23,775 bases of DNA from a virus. The position numbers were made by a program, and so were the translations under genes. Position 1 is the first letter of the stretch. The number at the start of each line of letters is the position of its first letter. The stretch is taken from the IMG/VR virus record IMGVR_UViG_3300017957_000079, positions 1 through 23,775 of that record. The stretch is one strand, 5' to 3'. The notes below the pieces were generated by a model. That model was not told the DNA's origin, searched no databases, and saw nothing but the letters and a program-made list of their open reading frames with translations. Of the stretch, positions 6,147 to 16,475 are shown piece after piece.

Positions 6147-8180
6147 ATGAAAAAAATCGAATCATTTAAGTCTTTCTCTCAACTGCAGAATCAATTAAGA
6201 GAGGAAGCTAGACTAAAAGAAGTTGCAAGTAAACGTGAAGCTTCTACCGCAGCGTTTAATGAACTACTATCTAAGTACAATGCATCTTCAATCACAGATA
6301 TCAACGAAGAAGACCTTGATGCATTTATGACAGAGCTAACAGCTGAAGGTAACGCCTTTGGTGCTGCAAGAGCAGAAGCTATTGCTAAAGGTGAAAAAGA
6401 GTTTGAAGTTGACGGTGAAAAACTACCAGTTGAAGACGTTGATGCTGAAGACGAGGAAAACGCAGAAGAATTTGCTAACGAGTCAGTGGTTAATGAAGAT
6501 ACTACTATTTTTGAAGCAACAGTTGAGCTAGACGCATTAGACCCAAAATCTAAAGACCTTGCAAAGCTACTTAAGAAAAATAAGGTAGAAATGGAAATCG
6601 TTTCTTATGGCGGTCCAACATACGGTACACAAGTTGTTGTATTAACAGGTAAGAAAAAAGATCTTCAAACTGTAATGGCTGATTGTGATTACGGTTGGTG
6701 TATGGATAACTCTGAGTCTGATGAGTTTATCGAAGAGTCTACTAAAGTAGATTTTATGAATGAAGCACTAGATGCACGTTCTCAAAAAGATGCGGTTAGA
6801 GGTTTAGCAGCTATTAATAAATTTATGGCAGCTCACCCGGCATTTGCAGGTGGTAAAACAGTAGCCGACCAAACAATTGCATGGTTATTAAAAGAAGCTC
6901 TTAAAGCTGCAATGATTGACGCTAACTTTAGTCAAGAGGCTAATCAAGCTGCAAGAGCAATTAACTTTGCAAACTTCATAGCCCCAACTATCTTTATTAA
7001 GGAAATGGGTGGTATGCCAATCCAGATTAGCAAGAGGATAATGATGGAGAAGGTGTATGAACTAGGTACTGAAATAGCTAGAGGTGTTAAATATAATGGA
7101 TATGCTATTATTGAAGCTGTTGCACTTTACATGGAGTCTAGATTTAAAAAGAATTCATCAGCTACAGCACTTAGAGACACATTAAATAAATTTTTAGGTG
7201 AAGCTAACGAACTAGATATCAAAGTACAAAGAATCAACGAAGGTTCAGCTTTTAACACAGCGAGACTAAAAGCGATTGCTGACGATAAGGACGAGTTTGA
7301 GTTTGACGGTAAAACTTATCCAGTAAAGTCTGTTGATAAGGAAGATGAAGAGCTAGCTGATGAAATTACAGAAGCGTTAGGTTCAGGTAATAAGAAGCAT
7401 GCATCAAGCAAACTAATGCAGGCTAAAAGAAGTTTAGAAAATACTTTTGACCCAGATATAGACGCGCCATTAGATGTTAAATCATTTGGTTCAGATATCA
7501 AAAAAATGGTAAAGCAACTAGAGGTTATTCTTAAAAAACAAAAAGAATTTGAAGGTTCAGTAACTGAAGCATTAGACAAAGAAACTATGAAAAGAATGTC
7601 AGGTCTAACAGATACAAGAGACCTACGTGATTTTAGATCAGCTTTCCTATCAATCGTACAGTCACACATTGACGAAGGTTTTGAATTTGACGACGTTATT
7701 GAATTTATGAACTCAATCATGAGGGACCCTAACATAAGAAAGCAACTACAAGAATCATTAATTTCTGAAGGTAGAGCGTTTGCAGCCGCAGCTAAGAAGG
7801 CTAAAGATGCTGGTGAAGAAGAGTTTGAATTTGACGGTAAAACTTACCCAGTAACTATTAAAGAATCACAGGAAGTGATTGAAGAAGGTTACGAAGAAAG
7901 AAAACTAGAAGACGCTAAGGAATTTATTAAGAAGGCTGAAGGTAAAAAAGTTAAGCTAACTATTTACGAAGGCGGTTCTGAATCAGAAATTATAGATACT
8001 TTCAAAAAAGGGTCATACGGCCTTCACAAAATTGATTACATGGGATTTGACTTTGATGAAGAGTTAAAATCTATTGAAAATGGTGATGGTATGATTATGG
8101 GTGTTAGACCTGGTATGTTCCTTAAATGGAAAATCGGTAAAGGTAGACATGGAACTACTTGGTTAATCGAGGTACTATAA
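6147..8180 (+). CDS. Internal head polyprotein candidate with three repeated modules (677 aa)
   Basis: Starts MKKIESFKSFSQLQNQLREE, a short basic/aromatic leader ending in L17-R-E19, like a capsid-targeting sequence. Further candidate prohead-protease sites are E67 (L-T-A-E before G), E117 (VVNE), E206 (MNE), E365 (INE), E409 (ITE), E474 (VTE) and E541 (ISE). Three copies of a module of about 31-32 residues begin directly before or at such sites. Each reads roughly xAFxxARxxAIAxGxxEFEFDGKTYPV (residues about 64-95, 363-393 and 539-569). Between them are an Ala-rich helical domain (about 206-360), a basic helical segment (about 410-470), and a C-terminal beta-rich domain (about 585-677). I recognise no enzyme motif. 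Arg is mostly AGA. A role as prohead core or injected protein is inferred. Confidence 0.75.
   Translation: MKKIESFKSFSQLQNQLREEARLKEVASKREASTAAFNELLSKYNASSITDINEEDLDAFMTELTAEGNAFGAARAEAIAKGEKEFEVDGEKLPVEDVDAEDEENAEEFANESVVNEDTTIFEATVELDALDPKSKDLAKLLKKNKVEMEIVSYGGPTYGTQVVVLTGKKKDLQTVMADCDYGWCMDNSESDEFIEESTKVDFMNEALDARSQKDAVRGLAAINKFMAAHPAFAGGKTVADQTIAWLLKEALKAAMIDANFSQEANQAARAINFANFIAPTIFIKEMGGMPIQISKRIMMEKVYELGTEIARGVKYNGYAIIEAVALYMESRFKKNSSATALRDTLNKFLGEANELDIKVQRINEGSAFNTARLKAIADDKDEFEFDGKTYPVKSVDKEDEELADEITEALGSGNKKHASSKLMQAKRSLENTFDPDIDAPLDVKSFGSDIKKMVKQLEVILKKQKEFEGSVTEALDKETMKRMSGLTDTRDLRDFRSAFLSIVQSHIDEGFEFDDVIEFMNSIMRDPNIRKQLQESLISEGRAFAAAAKKAKDAGEEEFEFDGKTYPVTIKESQEVIEEGYEERKLEDAKEFIKKAEGKKVKLTIYEGGSESEIIDTFKKGSYGLHKIDYMGFDFDEELKSIENGDGMIMGVRPGMFLKWKIGKGRHGTTWLIEVL
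6336..7853 (+). repeat. Three-copy coding repeat (EFEFDGKTYPV module)
   Basis: Copies at 6336-6431, 7233-7325 and 7761-7853 inside the 677-aa gene. Copies 2 and 3 share the peptide EFEFDGKTYPV exactly; copy 1 is diverged (EFEVDGEKLPV). Each copy opens with a (L/I)-x-(A/N/S)-E-G cleavage-like site, so the repeat unit includes its own processing signal. Confidence 0.8.
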
Positions 8181-8242: not shown

Positions 8243-8545
8243 ATGAAAAAGGTAAAACTATTTGAAGCGTTTATTGGCGAAGGTGTCTTTAGAACATACA
8301 ACGAGCTTGTAGGCTATGAGTACAGAGAGTTTGTAGATGGTTTTAAGAAGCTTCATAAAGATAACGTAGTAATCACTGATAACAAAGAAGATGTCGACTA
8401 CGGTATGCGTAAAGGCTCTAAAGAAGCCCTTTGGAAATACTTTAAAGACGAAGGTAGAATTTACCATTCTGAAAAAGACAGAGATGTATTAGGTCTTATT
8501 AATGCATTTAATATGGTGAAGAAAAACCATCCTTGGTCAAAATAA
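8243..8545 (+). CDS. Small head-targeted protein candidate (100 aa)
   Basis: The leader MKKVKLFEAFIGE-G has I11-G12-E13 as a candidate cleavage site. The next two genes and the ligase gene also have their candidate glutamate at residue 13. The body (residues 14-100) is charged and aromatic with no cysteine and no family motif that I recognise: YEYREFVDGFKKLHKD, a middle DYGMRKGSKEALWKYFKDEGR, and NAFNMVKKNHPWSK at the end. Lysine and tryptophan content would suit a DNA-associated internal protein, but that is inference. No Shine-Dalgarno sequence; the ATG follows TATT. Confidence 0.75.
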   Translation: MKKVKLFEAFIGEGVFRTYNELVGYEYREFVDGFKKLHKDNVVITDNKEDVDYGMRKGSKEALWKYFKDEGRIYHSEKDRDVLGLINAFNMVKKNHPWSK

Positions 8546-8557
8546 CAAAACAACAAA

Positions 8558-8887
8558 ATGAAAAGGGTTAGACTATTTGAACAATTCTTAAATGAAAGAA
8601 CAGCAGACTACAAATATTTAGTAGATCTATTATTAAATGCTGATTTAAAACACAGTGTTTATTATAATAATTCTTGGAGAGTTGTTAATGTAGGTGGGAC
8701 TGGTTATGATAAAGGTGATTTAGTTAAACAGTTCAATGCTAAGCCAGGTCAATCTCAAAAAATTAAAGATAACTTCTATTTAGCAGCTCAAAACCCAGAT
8801 GAAACTATAAACCAAATTGATAAGTTAGCAAAGGGTAAAATTGAAGTAGAGCAGGACGGTAAGTTGTTAAAATATACAGTAAAATAA
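8558..8887 (+). CDS. Small head-targeted protein candidate (109 aa)
   Basis: Starts MKRVRLFEQFLNE-R, with L11-N12-E13 as candidate cleavage site. The first 24 nt are identical to those of the next gene, so the leader is shared at DNA level while the bodies differ completely. The body has a helix (YLVDLLLNADLKH), a tyrosine/asparagine-rich turn, then NVGGTGYDKGDLVKQFNAKPGQ and a final beta hairpin EVEQDGKLLKYTVK. No family recognised. It lies 12 nt after the previous stop and 1 nt before the next start, so it is part of a compact transcription unit. Confidence 0.75.
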   Translation: MKRVRLFEQFLNERTADYKYLVDLLLNADLKHSVYYNNSWRVVNVGGTGYDKGDLVKQFNAKPGQSQKIKDNFYLAAQNPDETINQIDKLAKGKIEVEQDGKLLKYTVK

Positions 8888-8888
8888 T

Positions 8889-9371
8889 ATGAAAAGGGTT
8901 AGACTATTTGAAGATTTTGTTAACGAAGCAAAAGTTAACAAAGGTAAAGTTCATAAAGCAGCAAAAGACGCTAGCTATCCAGTGACACTTGTAGTGATTG
9001 ACGGTAAAAAAGTTGTTCACCAAGAATTGGTAGAGACTCCAATGGCAGTTCCAGCTTCAATGTCAGTATTAAAAGACAAGTACCCAAACCTTAAGATTCA
9101 TGTAGAATCTAAAACAGGTGAAGTTGTATTTGTTCAAGAATCAGCTGAAATTAACGAAGGACAGTATCTTAAAAAATTAGATAGATTAGCAGTTAAGTTT
9201 GAAGGTGAAATGGGATTTGCAACTTTGTCTGAGGATGATATGGATAAGTACATTAATATAGATATGGCTAATGAACTTGCAGAAGAAATGTTCGGTGAGT
9301 TTGGTTTTGCAACTTTAGATGAGGACCAAATGGAAAAGGTTCTTAAAAAGAATCCAAAGATAATTAAATAA
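8889..9371 (+). CDS. Small head-targeted protein candidate with internal site (160 aa)
   Basis: Starts MKRVRLFEDFVNE-A with V11-N12-E13 as candidate cleavage site. A second site of the same type, I88-N89-E90 before G, splits the protein into a beta-rich half (about 14-90: VTLVVIDGKKVVHQELVE, KIHVESKTGEVVFVQE) and an acidic helical half (91-160). The second half has a short internal duplication, GFATLSEDDMDK and GFATLDEDQMEK. If both sites are cut, two mature peptides of about 77 and 70 residues result. Its stop overlaps the next ATG by one base (TAATG). Function unknown. Confidence 0.75.
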   Translation: MKRVRLFEDFVNEAKVNKGKVHKAAKDASYPVTLVVIDGKKVVHQELVETPMAVPASMSVLKDKYPNLKIHVESKTGEVVFVQESAEINEGQYLKKLDRLAVKFEGEMGFATLSEDDMDKYINIDMANELAEEMFGEFGFATLDEDQMEKVLKKNPKIIK

Positions 9372-10660
9372 TGAAATTACTTGTTTCTTTTAATGAGTTT
9401 CTTTTAGAAAAAGCTCATAACTCATATAACGCTGATTTAATCTTAGAAGGTGGCGCAGCTGGTCATATGATGCACCCATTTGATGATAAGGGTCTTACTT
9501 TTGATGACTTTAGAAAGTTTATCGAGGCAGGTCTTCAAGGTGAAATGACTTTTGACGAAGAGCCAACTGAAAAGACTGATGGTCAAAACGTATTTGCTAC
9601 TGTTAAAGACGGTCAAGTTCTTTTTGCTAGAAACAAGGGACAATTAATGGCGCCTATAGATTTAGCGGGTATTACAAAAATGTTTGCTGAGCACAAATCT
9701 GAGTTGGTTAGGGACACATTTACATTCGCTGCTCAAGATTTATCATCATCACTTACTAAATTAAAACCAGCTGACCAAGAAAAGTATTTTAACAATGGTA
9801 AGAACTTCATGAACATGGAGCTTATCTATTCAAAGAACCCTAACGTAATCAACTACGATAGAGATGTTATTCAATTCCACGGTATTAAAGAGACTGATGG
9901 TGAGGGCAACATTATTGGTGATATGGGTGCAAGGTCGGCTAAAGAGATTGCAAAGCTTTTAGACAATGTTAATGCAAGAGCTGGTAAGGTATTCAACATT
10001 ATTCCACCCCAGGTACTTAAGCTACAAAAAGATATTGATTTCGAAACTCGTAAACCTTATTTCATGAAAAAAGTAGATGCACTTCAAAAGAGGTACAATC
10101 TAACAGGCCATGACGAGGTTGCAAGATACCATGAAATGTGGTGGAGAGAACAAATTGAAGAAAACTTTGGTGACCTTACACAAGATAAGAAAGAGGGATT
10201 ACTACTTAGATGGGCATATAAAGACAAGAAGACTCTAAACATGAGAACTCTTGCAAAAGAAGTGACTCCAGAACAAATGGAAGCTATTAAAAAGTTTGAT
10301 AAAGAGGACCTTAATAAAAAGTACAAAGAAAACATTAGACCATTTGAAGACCTTTTCCTTGAATTAGGTTCAGTCATTTTAAAGAATGCTTCTAATTTTG
10401 TTGCAGCATCTCCAGACGCGGAAATGCAAAGACTGCATAATCAAATTAGAAAAGAGGCTGACAAAATTAAAAAGGGCGGTGACATTGAGCAAATTGAAAA
10501 GGTAGAAGCCGAGCTTGAAAGACTAAATAGAATCGGAGGTATTGAATCAATCATTCCAACAGAGGGTTTAGTGTTCAAGTATAATGGCAAAATATATAAG
10601 TTAACGGGAACCTTTGCTGCGATTAATCAGCTAATGGGTATCATTAAATACGGTAGATAA
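9371..10660 (+). CDS. Ligase-type nucleotidyltransferase with head-targeting leader
   Basis: 429 residues. Motif I of covalent nucleotidyltransferases is present as K68-T-D-G (the lysine that would take AMP). ELIYSKNPNVI and IQFHGI in the middle resemble motifs III/IIIa. E398-G-L-V-F-K403 is motif IV, and K410 in KIYKLTG fits motif V. The order and spacing fit the RNA/DNA ligase superfamily, though a helical insert of about 200 residues (about 200-395) lies between IIIa and IV. The leader MKLLVSFNEFLLE-K (L11-L12-E13) is like those of the preceding small head proteins, suggesting packaging in the head and, by inference, injection with the DNA. Substrate (RNA nick, DNA nick or other) cannot be told. 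Neighbours on both sides are head-type or nucleotidyltransferase genes. Confidence 0.75.
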   Translation: MKLLVSFNEFLLEKAHNSYNADLILEGGAAGHMMHPFDDKGLTFDDFRKFIEAGLQGEMTFDEEPTEKTDGQNVFATVKDGQVLFARNKGQLMAPIDLAGITKMFAEHKSELVRDTFTFAAQDLSSSLTKLKPADQEKYFNNGKNFMNMELIYSKNPNVINYDRDVIQFHGIKETDGEGNIIGDMGARSAKEIAKLLDNVNARAGKVFNIIPPQVLKLQKDIDFETRKPYFMKKVDALQKRYNLTGHDEVARYHEMWWREQIEENFGDLTQDKKEGLLLRWAYKDKKTLNMRTLAKEVTPEQMEAIKKFDKEDLNKKYKENIRPFEDLFLELGSVILKNASNFVAASPDAEMQRLHNQIRKEADKIKKGGDIEQIEKVEAELERLNRIGGIESIIPTEGLVFKYNGKIYKLTGTFAAINQLMGIIKYGR

Positions 10661-10669
10661 CAATTAAAT

Positions 10670-12517
10670 ATGGCACTTCAAAAACTAAGGGACTATTATA
10701 ACGAAACGTCTAGAAATCATTTTTATAAAATGCTAGAGCAAAAGATTCACGTTGTTGAGAAATTAGCAGCGTCGTCTTTTCACGTTAAAGCAAGTGATAT
10801 TAAAAACGAATACTATAAGTCTGGTCAATCAACACCTCTTAATGTTATTGACAGAACAATCGTTAGTTTTTATGAACCTGCTATTATGCACTTTAAAGGT
10901 CTTCCTATGGAAATTAGAGAAGAAATGCCTAAAGATTGGAAGTTTGGATTTGACTATTTAATTGACGGTGAAACTCCCAACTTCAAGTACTCACTACTTC
11001 CTAAAAACAATTTAGTACTTACACACATTCAAGTATTAAATCCAACTAATGAGACAGTTTCTAAAGTAATTAGAGATACTCAGGTTCTTAATAAATGGGC
11101 AGAAAAACTAGAGGTTCAAAAACCACCAGTTATTTTTGAGGGTCAATTGAGCCACAACCAAAAGGAGGATCTTGTTAAAATGTTAGAGCTTACTGATGAT
11201 GAGTTTGCTAGAAAATATGAAGACAGGTCTTTTACAAGAGATTTGTTCTCAATTTTTAATTCAAATCTTAGGAATTCAGCACTTCAAGAAAATCTTGATA
11301 GTGAAATTGAAGGCTTGGTAGTTTCATTTGTAGACGGTAAAAAAATGACGCCGTTTAAAATTGAAGATTTTAGAAAAATTAATGAATCAGCTGGCCCTAG
11401 AAAGTCATCAGATATTTACCAAATCACTATTGTAGATTTAATTGAGTATCTATCTGAATATGATTTTAAAAAGCATAAATTAGTTAAAGAAGACAAGTAC
11501 CGTAGGTTCCTTGAACTTATGTCAGAAGTGTTCAATAACTATATCAAAGAAAATGCACCTAAATATATTGGTGTTAACTTTGAATCAGCAGACTTTGCTA
11601 AAAAAGAATCGTTTAAGCTTAATACTTCATTTATAGAAAATGAAGAAACGATTAGACTTACGAATAATCCAGTATTAGCAGAGCTGTTTAAAATTACACT
11701 TAGCTCATTTAAGGCTAAGAGAACAAAAACAACGGACATCCTATCTGAAGATATGGTCAATCAAATGAATGAAATTGTTGAAGCTATTGATTCACATGTG
11801 TCTGCAAAAATAGAAGAAGGTGACGTGTTAGATTTCCAGAACTATATCAAAAAAGATAGAATTGATGCTTCTGTAAACGAAGCAAGACGCGTATTTACAG
11901 TAAAACACCCTGAACAAGGTAAGAAGCTTGTAAATATGTTTGTTGGTAGATTCCAACCATTTACATTAGGCCATGCTAAAGTGGTAAAAACAATTCACGA
12001 ACAAAACGGTTACCCTGTAGTAATCTTCCTAGTGAAGTCAGTTTCTAAAAAGAAAGAAGACGGTTTTAAAAGACCTTACGATGAGCAAACACAGCTTGAA
12101 ATGCTAAACGCTCTTAAAAGAGAACTTCCGATTGAAGAGGTATACATTATTAACTCAGCAGGTATTGACCTTATGTTTAACGAAATGAGACCTAAGTACG
12201 AACCAGTTTTATGGGGTACAGGTACTGACAGATTAAAAACGTATGGTTACCAGGTTGATGAGCCAAAATACAGGTCTCAATTAGATGTTAGACCAGACTT
12301 TGGTTTATTTGAGATTCCAAGAACAGGTAAAAACATTTCAGCTACTCAAGTTAGAGAAGCAATGTTAGCTGGTGACGAAAAGTTATTTAAGAAGCTTACA
12401 CCTAAGTCTATTCACGGTATGTACAACGACCTTAAATCTAAATTAGAGCAAGCAATGGCGTTAGCAGAGTCAAATGAAACAATCATGACATTTGAACAAT
12501 TTATTGCTAATATATAA
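10670..12517 (+). CDS. Ligase-like domain fused to NMN-adenylyltransferase-like domain
   Basis: 615 residues. The N-terminal part (about 1-240) resembles a phage family of ligase-like proteins (I recall DUF6267). It shows HVK40ASD as a possible motif I, WKFGFDYL and motif IV-like E214-GLVVSF; the classic KxDG is absent, so activity is doubtful. The C-terminal part (about 420-580) is a HxGH-type nucleotidyltransferase with G426-RFQPFTLGH435 and the second signature ISATQVR562, as in NadM/NadR NMN adenylyltransferases (NMN + ATP to NAD). Candidate prohead-protease sites are I237-N-E239 and V402-N-E404 followed by Ala; the latter falls in the linker between the domains. There is no N-terminal leader, but the C-terminus ends MTFEQFIANI, resembling the leader core FEQFL. 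Starts 9 nt after the ligase gene. Confidence 0.75.
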   Translation: MALQKLRDYYNETSRNHFYKMLEQKIHVVEKLAASSFHVKASDIKNEYYKSGQSTPLNVIDRTIVSFYEPAIMHFKGLPMEIREEMPKDWKFGFDYLIDGETPNFKYSLLPKNNLVLTHIQVLNPTNETVSKVIRDTQVLNKWAEKLEVQKPPVIFEGQLSHNQKEDLVKMLELTDDEFARKYEDRSFTRDLFSIFNSNLRNSALQENLDSEIEGLVVSFVDGKKMTPFKIEDFRKINESAGPRKSSDIYQITIVDLIEYLSEYDFKKHKLVKEDKYRRFLELMSEVFNNYIKENAPKYIGVNFESADFAKKESFKLNTSFIENEETIRLTNNPVLAELFKITLSSFKAKRTKTTDILSEDMVNQMNEIVEAIDSHVSAKIEEGDVLDFQNYIKKDRIDASVNEARRVFTVKHPEQGKKLVNMFVGRFQPFTLGHAKVVKTIHEQNGYPVVIFLVKSVSKKKEDGFKRPYDEQTQLEMLNALKRELPIEEVYIINSAGIDLMFNEMRPKYEPVLWGTGTDRLKTYGYQVDEPKYRSQLDVRPDFGLFEIPRTGKNISATQVREAMLAGDEKLFKKLTPKSIHGMYNDLKSKLEQAMALAESNETIMTFEQFIANI

Positions 12518-12537: not shown

Positions 12538-15500
12538 ATGTTTGAATCTTTTAACGACTTTACAAATAATGACATGCCTTTAAATGAGGGCATGTTCTCG
12601 TTTAAAACCTTAGGTGATAATAAGGCAATCAGTGCTAGGTCAGGTGCTGATATTTACATGTTTGATGATAAAGGAAACATGTGGCATGAAGAAAACTATG
12701 AAGGTTATGGTATCTTCGGTGGTAAAGACTATTTTGAGCTAATGGCCGAAATGAATGGTGAAGAAGGTAGAGATATCGGCATTGACCTTTACTACAGCGA
12801 TAATAAAAAAGTTTTATATCCAGCTTTAACAAGAGACGAAGACTTCAACTGGAAAAGACATAAGTTTACTACTAAGATTAAGTCAGACCCTAAGCAAGGT
12901 TGGTTTTATGAATCTGTAGTTAATGAAGCAAGCGTTACGTTTACAGCAGACCAATTAAACGGACTTCATAGAATTTTGGTTCTTAAAATGGACCAAGGTG
13001 AAAGAATTGCGGGTGTATACGGATATACTTTAAATACAATGCTTTCTAACTATATAAAAAGAGCAGAGTCTAAACCGGGTAACAAAACGGCAGTAAAGGT
13101 TGATGATAAATTAGCAAACGCTATGGACCAACTTCTATCTAATAATGATAATCATTTATCATCAGATGACGAAGCCTATGTTAGATCAAAAATTAGTAAA
13201 ATAGTGACTGAATCAACAATTAATGAAGCTAAGTCAATTGCTAAGATTCAAAAGGAATGGGGTAATGTTACCGCAATTATGAAAGACGTTGTTGCTAAAT
13301 ATAAGAAAGCAGAAGGTCAAGAAAAAGAGGACTTATTAGACGAGCTTAAATCTTTAACAGCTTCTAAGAAACAACTTGAAGCTGAATTAGATGCAGCGGT
13401 TGGTCTTAAAGATATTGACGCTGAATTAGCAGAGGGCATGACAACAGAAACAGTTGACGAGTCTATTAAAGCTGAAGATATTAAACCAGGTGCTGAATTT
13501 AAAATTAAAGGAGGTACTGTTTTTAGAGTTGATGATGTTGAAGACCACAAAAAGCAAGGTCTGATAGTTCATTCAAGCATGTCTGACTCTGGCAAGAAAA
13601 ACGCATACCGCGATAGCCTAGATGATTTTGTAGAATTTTTGAATGACGAAAAAGCAAAGATGTTAGAAAATGCAACAGAAACTCGTGGCACAATCGAGTT
13701 AGTAAGCGAATCGTACAACGAACTTAATGAAAGAACGGTTACACTTAAAAGAAGATATACTGAAAATTACCCAGCAGTTACAGCTGGTAAATCAGCAAGA
13801 ATTAGAAACAAAATGCTAGAAGCAATCGCTGATGGCAAAATCACTCAAGAAGAGTTTAACGCTATCTTAAAAGAAATGTCTAACCACCCAGGTAAGTGGT
13901 CAAGAAGAAACGCTAAGTACTTTAACGTATCTGAAGACGGTATTTCACTATCAAAGTTTGGTAAAAGAGCTCTTAAGCAAATTACAATTAACGAAGACGA
14001 TATGAATGAAGCTAGAGAACACTGGGTTGTTTATACAGGTGAAGCTATGAAAAAGTTTTACTCAGAACACACTGGTAAAAAGTCGGCTGAAAAAATGGTA
14101 GACATGGCCTCAAGAGTACTGAACCAAGTAGGTATGATGACTAAGAGTGAATGGGAAAAAGAAAAAGAAGCGGGTAACGTTATGGAAAACACTAAATTTG
14201 TATTTGAATCATTCTCTGAATTCGAATCTAACACAATTAATGAAGGTGCATTTGTTGTATGGTATGAAGATAAAGAAGGCAAGCACCTTCTAGGTACATT
14301 CCATAATAAAAAAGCAGCGGACAAGTACAAGTCAGAAGAAGAAGATGAAGTACTAAACACAGTGGGTGTTAAAGCAATTGGCACAATGTCTAAAGATATG
14401 TGGGACAAAAAAGAAGCACCATATATTAAAGAAGCTGCAAAGATTAAAATGAATGCTCTTGATTGGGGTAAAACAACAGCTGAAAGAAATGCTAATCAAG
14501 ATAAGTACGATGCACTTGAAACTGAAGAAGAGCGCGAAGAATTCTTAAGACAATTAAAGAATGAATCAGTAGTTAATGAAGGTAAGCACGATGCAATGCT
14601 AGACCAATTAGCAGAGCTTGTTAAAGATGTAACGTTTATGAACATCGGTCTTAAGCTTAAAGAAGCGGGTATCAAGTATGATTTCTCAACAGGTATGATG
14701 CCAATGTATCAACTGAAAAAGTACCCAATCGCTATTCTAAACAAAAAGTATGTTGAAAAAGGTGATAGAGAAGTTGGTGATATTGCAATCGGTGTACTTG
14801 AGTCGGTTACTACGGAAAACGCTGAATTAGTTACAGAAGCATTCAAGTCTTCAAAGCTAAGAAACCTTTTAACAATGAGAGGTGCTGACGGTAACGCAAT
14901 TAAAAGTTTAGCTAGAGCATTTTACGGTTTAACTAAGTACAAACTAGACGAACTACCAGATGCAGCGTTAAGAGATGTTGACCCTCAAACAGCGTACAAG
15001 TCTTACCAAAAAGATAATGAATTTGCAGTATTCTATATTGCAGATAACGAAAAAGAAAATCCTTACGGCGACAGTGACTGGGAAAGCAAAATTCAACCAG
15101 GTATTATTGGAATTACAAGAGGTAAAGAATTCTTAGGTGCAACACACGATACTAAAAAGATGCCAGCGACACTTATGAAAGCTGCTTCAGATAATGCAGT
15201 TGGTGGTGATAAAAGATACTCTGGTTACGGTGCTACAGGTATTTACAATATAAAGAGAGCGGCGGAGCTTGCAGATAGAGCAGTTGTTGTATGGCTTAAT
15301 AATGATGTATTCAAGTCTACTGATAAAGTAGAGCAAAGAGCCGATGCTAAATCAGGTGCTATTGCATTTAAATCTGATAAAGAGTTTAAAGATGCTAACA
15401 TGTATAGATACAGAGAAATTTTAGCAACTAAAGCTTCTAAACTTCCTTTAGATAAAATGGTTGAAAAAGCTATTAATGATTTGTCTGCCCAAATTAAAGA

Positions 15501-15768
15501 TGGTTTAGCTAAAGGTGAATTTACACGTTACGGTGATATTCTTATTGGTAAAAACAAAAAGGGTAGTGATGTTAGAATGAGAGATGCTTCTCAACATATG
15601 TCAAACATTTTAGATGCATACAGTAAATACGTAAGCTATACACAAGAGGCGAAAGAAGAAAAAGACAAGGGATACTCATCAGGTTTCTATGAAAAAGAAG
15701 CTAAAGCTTATGCGAAGAGAGTTGCTGATGACATTAAAAAAATTAAATCGTTTGATTACGCTTGGTAA
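12538..15768 (+). CDS. Giant internal head polyprotein candidate (1076 aa)
   Basis: The N-terminus MFESFNDFTNNDMPLNE-G is a leader with L15-N16-E17. Candidate prohead-protease sites of the same form recur at E130 (VVNE), E230 (TINE), E299 (LAE), E398 (ELNE), E486 (TINE), E569 (TINE), E681 (VVNE) and E767 (LVTE). They split the protein into modules of about 70-170 residues plus a C-terminal domain of about 309. The site at 569 is preceded by FVFESFSEFESN, a second copy of the leader. Modules about 487-569 and 570-681 look duplicated (VVxY ... KK-A ... VLNxVG ... M-x-K-x-x-W-x-K). The C-terminal domain (768-1076) has GYGATGIYNIKRAAELADRA and VVVWLNND and no motif I can assign; an Alt-like ADP-ribosyltransferase was considered but not supported. 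No cysteine-rich or membrane segments. Confidence 0.75.
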   Translation: MFESFNDFTNNDMPLNEGMFSFKTLGDNKAISARSGADIYMFDDKGNMWHEENYEGYGIFGGKDYFELMAEMNGEEGRDIGIDLYYSDNKKVLYPALTRDEDFNWKRHKFTTKIKSDPKQGWFYESVVNEASVTFTADQLNGLHRILVLKMDQGERIAGVYGYTLNTMLSNYIKRAESKPGNKTAVKVDDKLANAMDQLLSNNDNHLSSDDEAYVRSKISKIVTESTINEAKSIAKIQKEWGNVTAIMKDVVAKYKKAEGQEKEDLLDELKSLTASKKQLEAELDAAVGLKDIDAELAEGMTTETVDESIKAEDIKPGAEFKIKGGTVFRVDDVEDHKKQGLIVHSSMSDSGKKNAYRDSLDDFVEFLNDEKAKMLENATETRGTIELVSESYNELNERTVTLKRRYTENYPAVTAGKSARIRNKMLEAIADGKITQEEFNAILKEMSNHPGKWSRRNAKYFNVSEDGISLSKFGKRALKQITINEDDMNEAREHWVVYTGEAMKKFYSEHTGKKSAEKMVDMASRVLNQVGMMTKSEWEKEKEAGNVMENTKFVFESFSEFESNTINEGAFVVWYEDKEGKHLLGTFHNKKAADKYKSEEEDEVLNTVGVKAIGTMSKDMWDKKEAPYIKEAAKIKMNALDWGKTTAERNANQDKYDALETEEEREEFLRQLKNESVVNEGKHDAMLDQLAELVKDVTFMNIGLKLKEAGIKYDFSTGMMPMYQLKKYPIAILNKKYVEKGDREVGDIAIGVLESVTTENAELVTEAFKSSKLRNLLTMRGADGNAIKSLARAFYGLTKYKLDELPDAALRDVDPQTAYKSYQKDNEFAVFYIADNEKENPYGDSDWESKIQPGIIGITRGKEFLGATHDTKKMPATLMKAASDNAVGGDKRYSGYGATGIYNIKRAAELADRAVVVWLNNDVFKSTDKVEQRADAKSGAIAFKSDKEFKDANMYRYREILATKASKLPLDKMVEKAINDLSAQIKDGLAKGEFTRYGDILIGKNKKGSDVRMRDASQHMSNILDAYSKYVSYTQEAKEEKDKGYSSGFYEKEAKAYAKRVADDIKKIKSFDYAW

Positions 15769-15782
15769 TTAAGTTATAGATT

Positions 15783-16475
15783 ATGCCTAGTCAAAGTAAA
15801 TCACAACAACGTCTAATGGGAGTTGCATACGCGGTTAAATCCGGTGATATGCCACTTTCTGATGTAGATGCGTCATATAGAGATAAAGTTAAAGAGCTTG
15901 TTGACGGTATGTCACTTAAAGACCTTAAAGATTTTGCTGAAACAAAACACGACGATATACCGGAAGAGGTTACAGAAGGTGTAGTGAAAATTGATTTACG
16001 TAAAATACTAACTAAAATTTCAGGTGCTATCGGATACAAGCATGACCCAAAAATGAGGGAAGAGTTGTTATCAGCTTTTGAAAAAGACCTTAGGGAAATT
16101 ATGGTTAAGCATGACTACATTGTAGAAGATGAAACAATTGAAGAAGATTTATCAGCTGTTACCCCAAGTATGCTTGGTGGTATGGGCGATGTTGTTTTAC
16201 CCAATGGAGATGCCCCAGGTTCAGGTGATGTTCCAGCAGGTCAAGGTAAAGCTAAAAAGAAAAAAAAGAAACTTTTAAATGTTCAAGAGTTTATTAAAGA
16301 ACAAGAACAATTAAAAGCTTTTAAACCAGAACAAGGTGAAGGTGAAGAGTTAGGTGAGGGTGAATATGAAATTGGCCCAGCTAGAGACCCTGACCTTGAG
16401 ATGGAAGAAATACGCAAACGTAGACACGCTGCAGTTAATGTAACTACTTTTAGTAATTTCACTAAAAATAGGTAA
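15783..16475 (+). CDS. DUF3008-type protein with long charged C-terminal extension
   Basis: 230 residues. The N-terminal 60 or so (MPSQSKSQQRLMGVAYAVK ... DLKDFAETKHDDIPEEV) match the small phage/bacterial family I recall as DUF3008, normally a stand-alone protein of 60-80 residues. Here it is followed by a helical region (about 65-125), a Gly/Pro linker with a lysine run (KAKKKKKK at about 159-166), then LLNVQEFIKE, which resembles the capsid-targeting core 'QEFI', and an acidic/basic tail. The C-terminus VTTFSNFTKNR resembles the 1076-aa leader SFNDFTNN. It is the last gene before the strong terminator at 16500 and so closes the head block. Function unknown. Confidence 0.75.
   Translation: MPSQSKSQQRLMGVAYAVKSGDMPLSDVDASYRDKVKELVDGMSLKDLKDFAETKHDDIPEEVTEGVVKIDLRKILTKISGAIGYKHDPKMREELLSAFEKDLREIMVKHDYIVEDETIEEDLSAVTPSMLGGMGDVVLPNGDAPGSGDVPAGQGKAKKKKKKLLNVQEFIKEQEQLKAFKPEQGEGEELGEGEYEIGPARDPDLEMEEIRKRRHAAVNVTTFSNFTKNR

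Follow-up and report, generated by a model that had tools for sequence, protein, structure and literature searches.

Polyprotein processing is a hallmark of many eukaryotic viruses. The head protease of tailed phages is, to our knowledge, known for trimming propeptides and shredding scaffold, and not for releasing a series of mature domains. A 1076-residue open reading frame (ORF) in the stretch of viral DNA analysed here (the window; 23,775 nucleotides, IMG/VR record IMGVR_UViG_3300017957_000079) raises the question of whether a phage does encode such a series in one chain. The first-pass annotation had proposed a serial polyprotein processed by the head protease, and our results support it: module borders fall at the sites, single modules occur behind tags, an S77 protease is co-encoded and its own RVNE junction has the same form. 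From this we infer cleavage, and with a probability of roughly 0.8 we take the ORF to encode a capsid-targeted serial polyprotein of a T4-superfamily phage, cut in the prohead by the S77 protease into co-packaged small proteins.

Cleavage-like sites in the open reading frame

All of the tetrapeptides listed in the first-pass annotation, including the leader site at residue 17, were found in the ORF translation (PLNE-17, VVNE-130, TINE-230, (E)LAE-299, ELNE-398, TINE-486, TINE-569, VVNE-681 and LVTE-767). The tripeptide [ILVMF]NE occurred 8 times against 1.4 expected, a count reached by none of 5000 composition shuffles, and [ILVMF][NT]E occurred 10 times against 2.7 expected from such shuffles. 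The genome background of [ILVMFT][NT]E was about 0.4 per 100 aa. The looser T4-like motif [ILVMF]xE was only marginally in excess (32 against 24.7, p ~0.05), so the signal sits in NE/TE; the [ILVMF]xE count, being near chance in the window protein, was dropped as primary evidence. At five borders two sites lie 5-7 residues apart (225/230, 299/304, 486/491, 676/681 and 760/767). The weakest call is LAE-299, a position at which relatives have ELDE or ELAE. An additional site, YIKE-632, starts a module that is found behind NLNE in an isolated phage, PTm1 (see below). As this site had been overlooked, the serial pieces stand but their number changes, from about nine to, most likely, about ten modules plus a 17-residue leader (Table 1; arrows mark predicted cleavage points). 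The leader is a short N-terminal propeptide ending in a hydrophobic-x-Glu site, as in T4-type targeting tags.

Table 1. Coordinates of the polyprotein, its modules and other genes of the window
Feature	Positions	Strand	Remarks
Polyprotein ORF	12538-15768	+	1076 aa
Leader, residues 1-17	12538-12588	+	capsid-targeting-like tag MFESFNDFTNNDMPLNE↓G; site 17 kept in L091 and L093
Module 18-130	12589-12927	+	C-terminal end ESVVNE↓A
Module 131-230	12928-13227	+	end TINE↓A; second site IVTE-225
Module 231-299	13228-13434	+	coiled-coil-like; end ELAE (weak) or MTTE-304
Module 300/305-398	13435-13731	+	end ELNE↓R
Module 399-486	13732-13995	+	begins VTLKRRYTE; end TINE↓
Module 487-569	13996-14244	+	end is an internal tag-like stretch, FESFSEFESNTINE↓G
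Module 570-632	14245-14433	+	end YIKE↓A; kept in L091 and L093
Module 633-681	14434-14580	+	end ESVVNE↓G; PTm1 ORF-082 match
Module 682-767	14581-14838	+	end LVTE↓A
Module 768-1076	14839-15765	+	conserved C-terminal domain, 309 aa
Second polyprotein of the same type	6147-8180	+	677 aa
Short tagged protein	8243-8545	+	MKKVKLFEAFIGE↓G
Short tagged protein	8558-8887	+	MKRVRLFEQFLNE↓R
Tagged protein	8889-9371	+	MKRVRLFEDFVNE↓A; internal EINE↓G
Ligase-like protein	9371-10660		429 aa; tag-like MKLLVSFNEFLLE
Cytidylyltransferase/NMNAT-like protein	10670-12517		615 aa
Gene downstream of the polyprotein	15783-16475		DUF3008-like N-terminus, MPSQSKSQQRLMGVAYAVKSGD

We used AlphaFold2 to see where the sites fall relative to folded domains, a point raised by the first-pass annotation. 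The alignment for folding was built from whole relatives, since a fragment-based alignment misplaced modules. The whole chain was predicted from this shallow alignment with a mean pLDDT of 61 and 41% of residues below 50, so the structural support for the borders is modest. Eight of the nine named sites (17, 130, 299, 398, 486, 569, 681 and 767) lay in stretches with pLDDT below 50, as far as the shallow alignment allows, while site 230 lay in a predicted helix with pLDDT above 60; site 681 was also placed in a predicted helix. In module 300/305-398 the core reached pLDDT 75-87, with both sites in the flanking low-confidence stretches, and module 768-1076 had a mean pLDDT of 86. Fold searches with this last module gave no clear match (helical-bundle matches to its C-terminal part alone had E >0.1), and no PDB sequence was matched when its profile was searched. 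Scans with Pfam, PHROGs and PADLOC found no family for the 1076-residue protein and, over the polyproteins of 50 relatives, gave scattered weak matches, with remote domains possible; a Pfam-level search found no peptidase domain in the chain, with the same reservation. A scan of genome contigs found no cellular or prophage copy.

Module borders and their exchange in relatives

About 75 ORFs of related contigs contain module 768-1076. The residue before it was Glu in 72 of the 72 copies alignable at its start, always with L, V or I at P3 and N, T or A at P2. The P1' residue was A or S with rare exceptions; A, S or G are preferred at P1'. In five contigs (L036, L019, L021, L097 and L053) the module stands alone directly behind a tag, for example MNKIHTTFESFVNESLEVNE↓AFKSSKL in L019 and MKHIKLFEQFINESDSSLNE↓AFASTKL in L036, and in other phages 117-853 residues of other modules precede it. 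Among 44 non-redundant relatives, the part of the chain ahead of the last module had 1.50 sites per 100 aa, and the module itself 14-fold fewer (0.11). The other modules gave similar pictures. Module 18-130 starts after KINE↓GQFSWM at the N-terminus of one relative (L027) and after MIAE↓GQFSWM internally in another (L045); homologues of module 231-299 start in other polyproteins at INE↓, ITE↓, IDE↓ or IVE↓(A)RSI(A/N)K; and module 399-486 is found either directly behind an N-terminal tag (MKKFEEFIGE↓GKITLK) or internally after VTE↓, VNE↓ or LDE↓. When 14 stand-alone tagged proteins were matched to segments of larger ORFs, Glu directly preceded the start in 91 of 112 placements.

Across the 44 relatives, 27.8% of homology ends lay within 3 aa of [ILVMFT][NT]E, compared with 5.7% of random positions, and 13.5% of homology starts compared with 6.6%. 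Insertion borders fell at sites in 61% and 41% of cases against 12%. Control motifs with K or D/Q/S/G replacing the Glu were at or below the null at homology ends. Control motifs of the form [hydrophobic][DQSKEAR]E were likewise enriched at homology and insertion borders, and therefore either the motif is broader than NE/TE or part of the signal comes from acidic linkers; judging from these motifs, the real site specificity is probably wider than NE/TE. The proposal that the sites mark module borders was borne out, as the borders seen in relatives coincide with them. A processed polyprotein should consist of several separable domains that share one kind of cleavage-like site at their borders, and this is the layout found here.

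Comparison with two close relatives, L091 and L093, revealed exchange of modules from site to site. Between sites 130 and 230 the window carries one module, L091 none and L093 three others; module 131-230 is missing exactly site-to-site in L091, and each of the three modules replacing it in L093 is joined by ESV(V/I)(N/T)E↓A. The DNA flanking this exchange is 78-87% identical. In L091 and L093, module 682-767 is missing from this polyprotein; it is found, flanked by IVTE↓ and LITE↓, in their other one, at a place that holds an unrelated segment in the second polyprotein of the window. Residues 118-206 of the window's second polyprotein are swapped relative to L091 and L093, again between two sites (VVNE-117 and FMNE-206). 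This protein also contains three copies of a segment of about 30 residues, G(N/S/R)AFxxA...EFExDGKxYPV, each directly after a site (TAE-67, INE-365 and ISE-541).

As modules recombine exactly at these tripeptide-rich linkers, the linkers might be recombination joints at the DNA level, with no meaning for a protease. The codons at the sites, however, vary synonymously (AAT/AAC, GAA/GAG, ACT/ACA/ACG) while the amino acids are constant, and therefore selection acts on the amino acids. In addition, the N-terminal tags of stand-alone proteins still end in this tripeptide. We regard a pure DNA-level explanation as very unlikely.

Another possibility is that the chain is never cut, being a multidomain protein of the beads-on-a-string type whose xNE tripeptides are what remains of N-terminal tags after repeated fusion of tagged genes. 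Indeed, a complete FESFxxF-like tag (FIYESFxxFVxSLNE) persists at 42 of the 65 internal borders that precede the last module, and therefore fusion of tagged genes clearly happened. At the other 23 borders the tag has decayed, yet the tripeptide and the following Ala are kept. The P1 Glu before the last module has likewise been retained throughout while the linkers diverge, the synonymous codon changes at constant amino acids also speak against mere relics, and a matching protease is present. An uncut fusion protein is thus an improbable reading of these data, and we continue with that of a processed polyprotein.

Head protease, tagged genes and an isolated relative

The window, a fragment of a viral contig, encodes functions of DNA metabolism and has a tail-tube-like gene. 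A contig (L002) that is 99.9% identical to it over 17.8 kb carries an S77 protease gene (T4 gp21 family, PF03420) at its far end, on the same strand as the polyprotein and, from the coordinates, about 23 kb downstream of it. Matches to PF03420 above cut-off were obtained in 18 of 25 and in 7 of 8 records, this contig included, and 6 of 8 had a gp23-type gene for the major capsid protein. No S77 match came from G001 and G022, two large records that contain the ligase neighbour or the polyprotein but may be fragments. Relatives encode the protease as one protein with the scaffold, and 12 of 12 distinct proteases have the junction L(K/N)RVNE↓(S/A/T)(Y/F)G as well as conserved GELDHP and ISSR motifs. 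The junction RVNE↓ is the same site as that at the polyprotein borders. By analogy, and from the protease's own scaffold junction, the polyprotein sites would fall within its specificity.

Further observations were made around the head genes. The in-frame fusion of the head protease with an acidic, repetitive scaffold (a gp21-gp22 fusion), exemplified by L121:1441-3348, occurs across these phages. Near the head genes of G003, a 254-aa protein (L150:1606-2367) with 8 [ILVMFT][NT]E sites is top-ranked in its record and, from its sequence, is possibly another substrate of the head protease. A second, weaker S77 match in two records (G018 and G019; L171 and L172) may represent a diverged paralogue of the protease, such as has been reported for SPN3US.

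Relatives contain 118 distinct tagged ORFs of the form MKxxxLFExF(I/V)NE↓, typically KLFExF(I/V)NE↓. In the window, the 429-aa protein behind a tag-like stretch has an EKTDG motif as in nucleotidyltransferase-type ligases and more than 560 relatives in viral contigs; it may itself be a tagged, packaged enzyme. The C-terminal half of the 615-aa protein matches cytidylyltransferase/NMNAT-like families and its C-terminus is a tag-like MTFEQFIANI. Relatives of the gene downstream of the polyprotein also have site-bounded extra modules (L007:1483-3093). A tagged GTR(S/G)QFG protein (L108:12323-12745) has a body with relatives in Synechococcus and Streptococcus phages, and this body recurs within polyproteins of the present phage group. 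In Microcystis phage Mel-JY01, which shares the ligase-like gene, no clear tagged or site-dense polyprotein was seen in the 25 kb inspected.

An isolated relative was found in Tenacibaculum phage PTm1 (AP019524.1; Shirahamavirus), whose ORF-082 has 396 aa and 7 sites. Module 633-681 is 61% identical to ORF-082 over residues 636-692 of the 1076-residue protein, and in PTm1 the module is bounded by NLNE↓G and SLNE↓A. When the 282 PTm1 ORFs were ranked by sites, the first two places went to the protease-scaffold fusion, with 15 sites over 589 aa, and to ORF-082, with 7 over 396 aa. PTm1 thus shares with the window the site-bounded layout, this module and, in its genome, an S77 protease-scaffold fusion, but ORF-082 is shorter and the conserved C-terminal module was not found by tblastn.

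The highest site density in PTm1 is in the scaffold region of the protease fusion. This would suit an alternative in which the chain is cut but its products serve as filler of the core or scaffold and, like the fragments of T4 gp22 and gp67, exit the prohead instead of being delivered as cargo; in T4 itself, scaffold and core proteins are cut up and for the most part lost from the head (PMC9026906). The modules studied here are, however, compact and conserved, the last of them 309 aa with a confident fold and few internal sites, which sets them apart from a repetitive, acidic scaffold. Like the T4 internal proteins, they can also be encoded singly with a tag, and their fast gain and loss fits host-interaction cargo better than core scaffold. 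Because the modules are compact and conserved and also have tagged forms that stand alone, we disfavour the filler alternative, while granting it some chance, and prefer retained cargo.

Known systems and a proposed route for the polyprotein

In T4, gp21 is reported to cut after L/I-X-E, dividing scaffold and core proteins into several fragments, and to remove capsid targeting sequences of 10-19 residues from internal proteins (PMC9026906). The internal proteins IPI, IPII and IPIII and Alt (PMC9026906) resemble the present system in having a short N-terminal tag with a Glu site, an S77-type protease and a fast-changing set of small proteins. Each of them is encoded separately with one leader, whereas here up to about ten modules share a chain with a site at every border. 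T4 gp22, gp67 and gp68 receive several head-protease cuts per protein, as predicted here, but their pieces are scaffold or core and mostly removed, while those of the polyprotein are conserved domains also found as separate genes. The inner-body and ejection proteins of phiKZ and SPN3US are processed after Glu by S80-type proteases, some at multiple sites (PMC10052503, PMC5694885); the published sites remove N-terminal propeptides (one C-terminal), and none is reported to release a series of mature domains.

The nearest concept is that of the polyvalent proteins of phages and conjugative elements, which likewise have many domains per chain and heavy shuffling, are thought to be packaged and delivered, and are likened by the authors to the polyproteins of eukaryotic viruses (PMC5512222). 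Their processing is assigned to peptidase domains within the chain, whereas here the cutter would be the separate head protease. The targeting tag, the gp21-type protease and cleavage after hydrophobic-x-Glu are known from T4, and what is new is their arrangement. No report of a series of domains processed by a phage head protease was found in the open-licence PMC papers searched.

We propose the following route. The N-terminal leader would direct the entire chain to the core of the prohead, in the way that internal proteins of T4 are brought in by their capsid-targeting sequence. There the S77 (gp21-type) protease would cut after (L/V/I)(N/T)E at the borders and release about ten small proteins. 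The folded ones would remain packaged with the DNA and would probably be ejected into the next host as separate effectors. Because one and the same short site bounds every module, modules could be added, be lost or change places between polyproteins and tagged single genes.

On a broader scale, we think it reasonably likely that cassette polyproteins supply exchangeable cargo for the heads of marine T4-superfamily jumbo phages, with one leader and up to about ten domains separated by the protease, the cleavage site also serving as the evolutionary joint. The isolated phage PTm1 makes the polyprotein model testable now. If confirmed, it would represent a phage polyprotein strategy that is widespread in marine T4-like and jumbo phages. 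The tag together with xNE borders would then be a simple sequence rule for finding hundreds of unknown head-packaged proteins, and the polyproteins would amount to a naturally occurring system of exchangeable modules with which virions deliver cargo.
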